64,000 nucleotides of DNA from Hawksworthiomyces lignivorus. Lineage: Eukaryota > Ascomycota > Sordariomycetes > Ophiostomatales > Ophiostomataceae. The position numbers and the translations under genes are program-made. The DNA is taken from the NCBI GenBank assembly GCA_002917075.1, contig NTMA01000123.1:42734-106733 (forward strand), written 5' to 3'. The stretch's first letter is position 1; each line of letters begins with the position of its first letter. This document shows, piece by piece, positions 2,940 to 4,739 of the stretch. The notes beneath the pieces were generated by a model. That model saw only the letters and a list, made by a program, of their open reading frames with translations. It was not told where the DNA came from and ran no database searches.

Positions 2940-4739
2940 TTAAGTTAAAAACCAGCTCGGTATCTTTACACCTTTAGCATCTACGCCATTCTTAAGTAGT
3001 ATATTTACAATTCCTTTGCGTCGGTACATTATAGCTGTCTCCAACGCCTCCTTACTTGCCTTCACGCCGTTCTCTAACAGTAGCTTCACCGATCCCTCCT
3101 TGCCGTTCTTCACGGCAAATTTCAACGCTTCGCCGGCACTAGCTACTTTTGCGCCGTTCTCTAGCAGGACCTTTACTAAGCTATCTTTGCCGAACGTCGC
3201 AGCCAGAGTCAACGCTTCGTCAACACCATCTCTACCATACCTGAGTAGTAGTTTTAATATATCCTCACGCCCAAGCCTCACAGCTCTCAAAAGATCATCC
3301 TCTGTGACACCCATGCCGCGCCTAAGTAACAGCTCGACTACTGGCTTGCTCCCCGAGCTAACTATCATACCCAATAGTTGCGGATCGAATCCGGAGCCGT
3401 TCTCGAGCAGCAGCTTCGCTATTGCCACGTTGCCAGAACGCGCAGCCCGCTTTATAGCTACTTCTCCGATATGCACCCCGTGCTTAATCAGTAGCCTAAC
3501 TATTGACTTGTTTCCACGTTCCGCAGCCACCCGCAACGCCTCCTCATCCGGATCAACACCCCTCTCGAGCAGCAACCTCACAACCGCGTCGTGTCCTTTC
3601 GCTACCGCCTTTGCTTGCGGCGATAGGTTTTCGCGTTCTCCGTGGTCTCGCCGAATGCATATCTTCTCAAATAGAACACGTCTGGTTCCGATGGACCCTT
3701 TAGAGAATCGGCTGTATCCTGCCCGTATAAAGTAATTCTGGACTCCTGGTATCGGTCGCAAATTGATGCCAATTAGCTCATCCGGATCATCTCGTGACAC
3801 ACAAGGAATGATTCCCACCAGGCAATCCTTCTGACTGGGCAAATTTGAATTGTCCACAAAGACGTTGAGCCTCAGGTGGATTCCTTTGTTGTCCACGGCT
3901 ATTGCTTCGCTGACAGCATTTGAGGAAACCGATGGAACGATGTCCTCGGAATCGCTGAAGTCGTCGGGAGAAGACGCGAACACGCCGTCATTGTAGTCTG
4001 AGCCAAAATCTGACTAGGCAAAGAGGCTATAGTCATCCAAAGTATTCATAATTTCTTCCTGGAGCCTGGTAAAAGCTCTCTCCCCCTCGCCGTAGAGCAT
4101 CGGCATATGCACGCCAAAGATACCCATCAGGCAATAGGCAATATCTTCGACCCGGGAAGTCTCCCTATCTGAAGCCCACGACATCCTCTGAGCTACGCTC
4201 GCGCTCTTAAGGGCGCCTCCTCGAAGAACGTTATCCGGTATTCCGGTAATCCTCGATATCTCTAGTCGAAGGCTGTCTTTGGACCCTATATCCATCCACG
4301 ACTGATCAAAGAATATCACAAACGAGGGCGCGATAAGCTCTTGAAGCGTCCATCCTCTCTTGAACCACCTGCTACCCGGGAAACTGGCAGGGGTACCCCC
4401 CGTAGGGCTGTTGGGCGGTACATCAGAGAGGTAGACATAGCACACTATGGCCTTCTTGTACCAACGAAACATGGAGTTGATCGCCTCGGAAAGCTCCGAG
4501 CTGCTGGTCTTATCGATGCAGCATGTGTCGATCCAGACGTAGTCGAGTTCATAGCTCCTAGCAATTTCGCAAGCCTTTCTGACTTTTTCGTATCTAGCTC
4601 CCTGGCCGTCTCTTATACGACCGACATCTTGAAAAGTGACCTCATCACTCCCCCACGTGTGCGAGAGTATTGCATACACTGGGATGTCGCTGCTCACGAA
4701 TTCTACTAGTTCTAAGGTAGTAGTATGAAGCAGACGCAT
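2940..4739 (-). pseudogene. HET-ankyrin gene interrupted by a single in-frame TAG
   Basis: After the TAG at 4014-4016 the same frame stays open to 2940. The downstream part first shows the region that normally follows the HET domain in HET-E/HET-D-like proteins (VFASSPDDFSDSEDIVPS, then NKGIHLRLNVF and a stretch around 3830-3640). It then carries about seven ankyrin-type repeats of about 33 residues (about 3620-2960), with recurrent LLLERG, LLLENG and AAERGN motifs. No frameshift is seen. The downstream half has no ATG near its start (GTG lies at 3983; the first Met codon falls within the repeats), so it is unlikely to be an independent gene. I see no GT donor in the roughly 60 bases before the TAG that would splice it out. 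It could be a recent pseudogene, a readthrough gene, or a gene repaired by RNA editing. Confidence 0.75.
4014..4739 (-). CDS. HET-domain protein (upstream half of a split HET-ankyrin gene)
   Basis: The 241-residue frame starts at an ATG (MRLLHTTTLELVEF) and contains an essentially complete HET domain. Recognisable landmarks are YAILSHTWGSDEVTFQD, the YVWIDTCCIDKTSSSELSEAINSMF block (shown here only as its start and end: YVWIDTCCID and AINSMF), RWFKRGWTLQELIAPS, and RVEDIAYCLMGIFGVHMPMLYGEG. HET domains act in fungal heterokaryon incompatibility and allorecognition, where activation leads to cell death after fusion of unlike strains. Translation ends at TAG (4014-4016) directly after DDYSLFA. 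Relatives usually have a Trp at this position and continue into a second region and repeats. As read, the product would be a bare HET domain. The domain call is secure; the biological state of the gene is not. Confidence 0.85.
   Translation of the reverse strand: MRLLHTTTLELVEFVSSDIPVYAILSHTWGSDEVTFQDVGRIRDGQGARYEKVRKACEIARSYELDYVWIDTCCIDKTSSSELSEAINSMFRWYKKAIVCYVYLSDVPPNSPTGGTPASFPGSRWFKRGWTLQELIAPSFVIFFDQSWMDIGSKDSLRLEISRITGIPDNVLRGGALKSASVAQRMSWASDRETSRVEDIAYCLMGIFGVHMPMLYGEGERAFTRLQEEIMNTLDDYSLFA

Follow-up and report, generated by a model that had tools for sequence, protein, structure and literature searches.

The single in-frame TAG that interrupts a HET-ankyrin gene in this DNA is best explained, with a probability of roughly 0.68, as a recent nonsense mutation at the invariant Trp codon of a sensor/effector gene, that is, as an ordinary young allele that has lost its sensor. 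The gene lies near one end of the window, the 64,000-nucleotide stretch of Hawksworthiomyces lignivorus DNA analysed here, and is read on the minus strand from 4739 to 2940. It forms an open frame of 599 codons, from the ATG at 4739-4737 to the original terminal TAA at 2942-2940, with one interruption: the TAG at 4016-4014, codon 242. One and the same frame flanks this codon on both sides and holds no other stop. Upstream of it, residues 1-241 (4017-4739) match the HET family of Pfam (PF06985; 5.1e-15, 56.5 bits for a cut-off of 22.5) and represent the product if the stop is obeyed. Downstream, 357 codons remain open (2943-4013) and match Ank_2 (PF12796; 1.2e-32, 112.8 bits for a cut-off of 27.3), the C-terminal ankyrin part being also a fold match. 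Judging from the sequence, 357 stop-free codons that also align with paralogues are beyond chance. We rejected the downstream half as an independent gene, since its earliest in-frame ATG is codon 458.

The stop falls in a column where the family has Trp. All 29 aligned paralogues from the same genome carry it (L022-L050, those with a locus among 80 listed rows, the first of which is the query gene itself), and so do the 53 homologues chosen for a further alignment (A1). Among the 120 database homologues listed for the full frame, 112 have Trp at this column, seven a gap and one another residue. For the 120 listed matches of the HET half the corresponding counts are 90, 25 and 5, and some of these matches terminate near the Trp column, several of them labelled partial. 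One HET protein from the jgi database (P0346, 244 aa) terminates precisely with SLFA, one residue short of this Trp. In one paralogue (L047, G000:C157:220009-220743) a probable intron lies a few codons past the conserved Trp, at a place where the query has no donor. A standard intron excising the TAG was considered for the query itself and rejected: the closest GT is 96 nt upstream, so such an intron would take out conserved residues, which stand on both flanks of the stop. GC dinucleotides are found nearer to the TAG (3, 11, 49 and 60 nt), and a GC-AG intron would need a rare donor. The initial annotation had described one TAG splitting a HET-ankyrin gene whose frame continues beyond it, at a site where Trp is expected, with no usable ATG in the downstream half and no obvious intron to remove the stop; frame reading, the Pfam domains on either side and both sets of alignments bear this description out.

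We modelled the protein with and without its second half. When the frame is modelled as read through (pLDDT 88.3), the final helix of the HET module stops at residue 240 and is followed by a mostly beta linker domain (residues 267-363; 3651-3941) and an ankyrin-repeat solenoid (residues 374-583; 2991-3620), so that the stop is predicted to fall on the boundary between the HET module (1-241) and the beta domain plus solenoid. Modelled alone, the 241-residue product reached a pLDDT of 86.5 and a pTM of 0.86. The HET half had no PDB sequence match at E below 0.37, and its matches to the TIR-like fold were all weak. By analogy with related fungal receptors, the ankyrin solenoid is the putative sensing part. 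A HET domain of about 220-240 aa is reported to be sufficient for cell death when overexpressed, and the same source states that the majority of HET-domain genes have no role in allorecognition (PMC12881547). If the stop is a plain nonsense mutation, the transcript would give at most a HET-only protein of 241 residues, and it may be degraded, because more than 1 kb of formerly coding sequence would now serve as 3' UTR. The full ankyrin-gated protein would not be produced, leaving an allele that is either null or a sensor-less form, and that is probably young or segregating, the family being one whose members are gained and lost quickly.

Several observations bear on the age of the stop. In a neutral simulation, the probability that 356 downstream codons acquire no new stop was 0.27-0.15 at 0.05 substitutions per site and 0.09-0.03 at 0.10. 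The lack of further damage past the TAG fits a young stop; it would be equally expected if the frame were still used, so that it points to either a young stop or a used frame. Of 103 leave-one-out conserved residues the HET half retains 102, the highest share of the 30 aligned genes, and the stretch past the stop keeps 6 of 8, inside the range of the other genes. Database relatives are distant: the best full-frame homologue listed is 58% identical over 56% of the query, identity is at most 47% among those listed with at least 90% coverage, and the HET half reaches 68% at best among its listed matches. Identities this low are what one expects of a gene that is dispensable and turns over fast. 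A cohesin subunit of the same genome shares 76-82% identity with Sporothrix, 78% with Ophiostoma and with Niveomyces, and about 50-57% with the other Sordariomycetes listed, which places the host in the Ophiostomatales. The listed database matches include no TAG-bearing orthologue, nor any close orthologue at all, and plasmid records gave no match to the query. Within the 43.7 Mb genome searched, where the gene sits on contig C28, the nearest paralogue, located on contig C183, shares 51% identity with residues 1-532.

From the other HET genes of this genome one can gauge how common such lesions are. It has at least 150 HET-domain places, and 13 of 150 HET rows carry in-frame stops, with all three stop kinds represented, although some of these may be introns. 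We examined four of the 13 in sequence (L063, L064, L065 and L066). The first two have a HET frame that is open but for a TAA and a TGA, respectively, which may likewise lie in introns, and in L066 a TAG is followed by a changed frame, meaning a frameshift or an intron. A single A-to-I edit turns TAA into no sense codon; it can turn TGA into Trp, but there the edited base follows a disfavoured G at -1. L065 (G000:C131:264500-265600, plus strand) has a HET frame open but for two tandem TAG between LKA and EGIPW; this recalls the tandem UAG of PUK1, at a site where the family presumably has no fixed Trp. The apparent occurrence of isolated nonsense codons of every kind in HET genes here favours ordinary loss, and with it the second option of the initial annotation, a recent loss allele. 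Other points count against the nonsense reading. Such stops are rare in the gene's own subfamily, where among the 80 rows listed only this gene and one secondary piece (contig C148, TAA) have them, and the change is of the class best corrected by A-to-I editing, in a species that looks competent to edit.

This leads to the rival that survives best, albeit as an unlikely one: editing of the mRNA, either by Tad2-Tad3-Ame1 in sexual tissue or by an OLD-type deaminase in hyphae, would restore the Trp, and the full HET-ankyrin protein would be made only when edited. The initial annotation had put this idea first, pointing to such editing in Fusarium and Neurospora, and the host does belong to a class, the Sordariomycetes, in which sexual-stage A-to-I editing is known. 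The UAG does occupy the invariant Trp column, with an intact frame behind it. That the nonsense change should have hit a Trp codon is slightly unusual but no more than that: of all one-step nonsense changes possible in this frame, 4-16% are of the Trp-to-TAG class (transition weight 1-8), which lifts the editing reading several-fold over a low prior. The base rate of broken HET genes in the genome lowers its odds again, and so does the absence of a TAG-bearing orthologue among the matches listed. As for the bases around the site, G at +1 and A at +4 agree with the reported preferences, whereas C at -2, C at -3, T at +2 and C at +3 stand against preferences for U, G, G and A/G, respectively (PMC4817773, PMC11156358); the U at -1 of the edited A is supplied by the UAG itself.

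Folding predictions, too, were mostly unfavourable to editing. The A of the TAG is predicted to be paired, with a probability of being unpaired of 0.27, 0.34, 0.10, 0.02, 0.02 and 0.07 at ±20, 25, 30, 40, 50 and 75 nt; at ±15 nt this value is 0.85. Equally low values occur in 14% of 387 UAG triplets (any frame) of the paralogues, while against 387 Trp codons the site falls in the lowest 43%. Hairpin loops contain 131 of the 387 UAG triplets and 63 of the 387 Trp codons. Yet the corresponding A in a control site of the same genome, the PUK1-like kinase described below, is paired too (probability of being unpaired 0.02 throughout), so that predicted structure hardly discriminates. At ±30 nt the hairpin of the control is by far the more stable one (-17.8 vs -7.2 kcal/mol for the HET site).

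We then consider whether the genome holds the machinery. Two DUF726 genes are present (four rows, from two contigs), and the copy scoring lower against the family (L060, G000:C147:168378-168905) reads SVGMVRSDKVG ahead of GYSLG. An MV dipeptide is reported to be critical for Ame1 (PMC11087585), and by its sequence L060 is a probable Ame1-type cofactor; from its M to the nucleophile Ser there are 30 residues, compared with 31 by F. graminearum numbering, and the register of the MV is one that we infer. The match to the other DUF726 gene (L059) contains a TAG that was set aside, as it sits in a probable intron. Seven TAG-bearing kinase places were inspected (L069-L075). Six of them were discarded: the kinase match runs into a likely splice donor in L070 and L071, and in L069, L072, L073 and L074 the match has its TAG at the first or second codon. 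A further kinase match containing three TAG (L068) belongs to an ordinary kinase, with the stops within a probable intron. The remaining place (L075/L076, G000:C137:755200-756500, minus strand) is a PUK1-like kinase with TAGTGG in the stretch of subdomain IX, which we take to be the aspartate-Trp-Trp stretch of that subdomain. In the N. crassa orthologue of PUK1, UAGUGG is reported to be edited to UGGUGG, and the stops of the gene lie in the ninth subdomain (PMC4817773). We infer that the kinase is PUK1, and its TAGTGG is a probable stop-correcting editing site. On the strength of these sequences the host species is probably able to edit, and the PUK1-like TAGTGG and the MV-type DUF726 protein together suggest that the Ophiostomatales, too, correct stops by editing. 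Both features speak for the editing reading, as do eight places in the genome with OTT_1508-like (OLD-type) deaminases (L051-L058) and the known case of stop editing in an antiviral defence module (PMC12754623). Against it, none of the eight is on contig C28, which carries the HET gene. The 1.5 kb flanks of the eight loci were scanned for a zinc-finger gene interrupted by an in-frame TAG, and no convincing candidate emerged.

The open-licence literature searched yielded no account of a HET gene whose stop is corrected by editing; of eight papers listed on the matter six lack the term 'heterokaryon incompatibility', and in the relevant passages of PMC6794485 it refers to newly annotated genes, not to edited ones. 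The editing idea has thus gained a candidate cofactor and a PUK1-like site in the genome, but no sign that this particular TAG is kept or edited: no orthologue among the listed matches attests it, and context and fold are mostly unfavourable. A more specific form of it, in our estimate improbable, would make the TAG an RNA-level switch of a cell-death receptor, in which the bare HET module is translated from unedited mRNA and the ankyrin-gated receptor from edited mRNA, and editing in sexual or infected tissue sets the control of self/non-self killing. Were the site edited, we would know of no earlier HET receptor that RNA editing restores, and the case would link programmed cell death with the editing system.

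The stop could also be functional and kept, yielding a stand-alone HET effector of 241 residues that other sensors might recruit; we regard this as doubtful. The coincidence of the stop with a module boundary and the conservation of the HET half (102/103, the highest share of the 30 aligned genes) speak for it, as does the reported killing by an overexpressed HET domain of about 220-240 aa (PMC12881547). Proteins of such a shape are also on record, with P0346 (244 aa) ending at SLFA and some others at or just past the Trp, several of these labelled partial. On the other hand, an ungated cell-death module should presumably be costly, and a long-established truncation predicts decay of the downstream frame, which is undecayed. 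The genome itself offers no established HET-only gene among the nine short HET frames that we checked: seven continue, in a different frame, into sequence that is NLR-like by its P-loop motif and are therefore first exons, and the remaining two are ambiguous. L047, with its probable intron just past the Trp, likewise counts against this reading.

Inactivation by repeat-induced point mutation (RIP), with the TAG as a TpG-to-TpA change, is a weak explanation and a very improbable one. Among 30 genes compared, none has more RIP-like indices than the two parts of this one (TpA/ApT 0.94; (CpA+TpG)/(ApC+GpT) 1.08 and 1.07), ATA makes up 0.47 of the Ile codons, the highest share of the genes compared, and the composite index is positive in windows at the ends of the gene (0.57 from 2701, 0.28 from 3001 and 0.14 from 4201); moreover, pseudogenes made by RIP are known in HET-related families (PMC1805685). 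Nevertheless the gene has a single stop, both 600-base windows around it (from 3601 and 3901) are negative (-0.77 and -0.31), and 19 of 212 windows across the 64 kb are positive anyway. The use of TpA at third positions (29/69) is inside the paralogue range, and the best long second copy in the genome is 72% identical over about 700 bases, with a few shorter stretches reaching 86%. Just as remote is a sequencing or assembly error at 4015: a single base is at stake, but a substitution hitting precisely this codon is improbable and the remainder of the frame is clean.

The nonsense reading can finally be set beside known systems. With the genes in which a premature stop codon is edited in F. graminearum and N. 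crassa (PUK1, AMD1, FgRID and others), the present gene shares a TAG, an intact frame, a conserved Trp and a Sordariomycete host (PMC4817773, PMC11156358); it differs in that its TAG is read from DNA alone, no TAG orthologue was found among the listed matches, and its flanking bases are mostly unfavourable. The OLD-ZAO antiviral module follows an analogous logic, a defence-type gene being held off by a TAG (PMC12754623), whereas here no OLD-like deaminase lies beside the HET gene and the target is other than a zinc-finger factor. The gene also resembles incompatibility-type genes with premature stops and intact relatives, namely het-V of Neurospora, in which pseudogenised copies, their premature stops of independent origin, segregate as polymorphisms (PMC9262711), and HNWD/NWD of Podospora (PMC1805685). 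The present gene, known from one genome sequence, differs from these in its HET-ankyrin architecture and its single stop. A HET-type gene with a premature stop is, as het-V and NWD illustrate, a kind already described, and as it stands the allele reported here adds one more broken gene to a family of fungal defence genes that changes fast.
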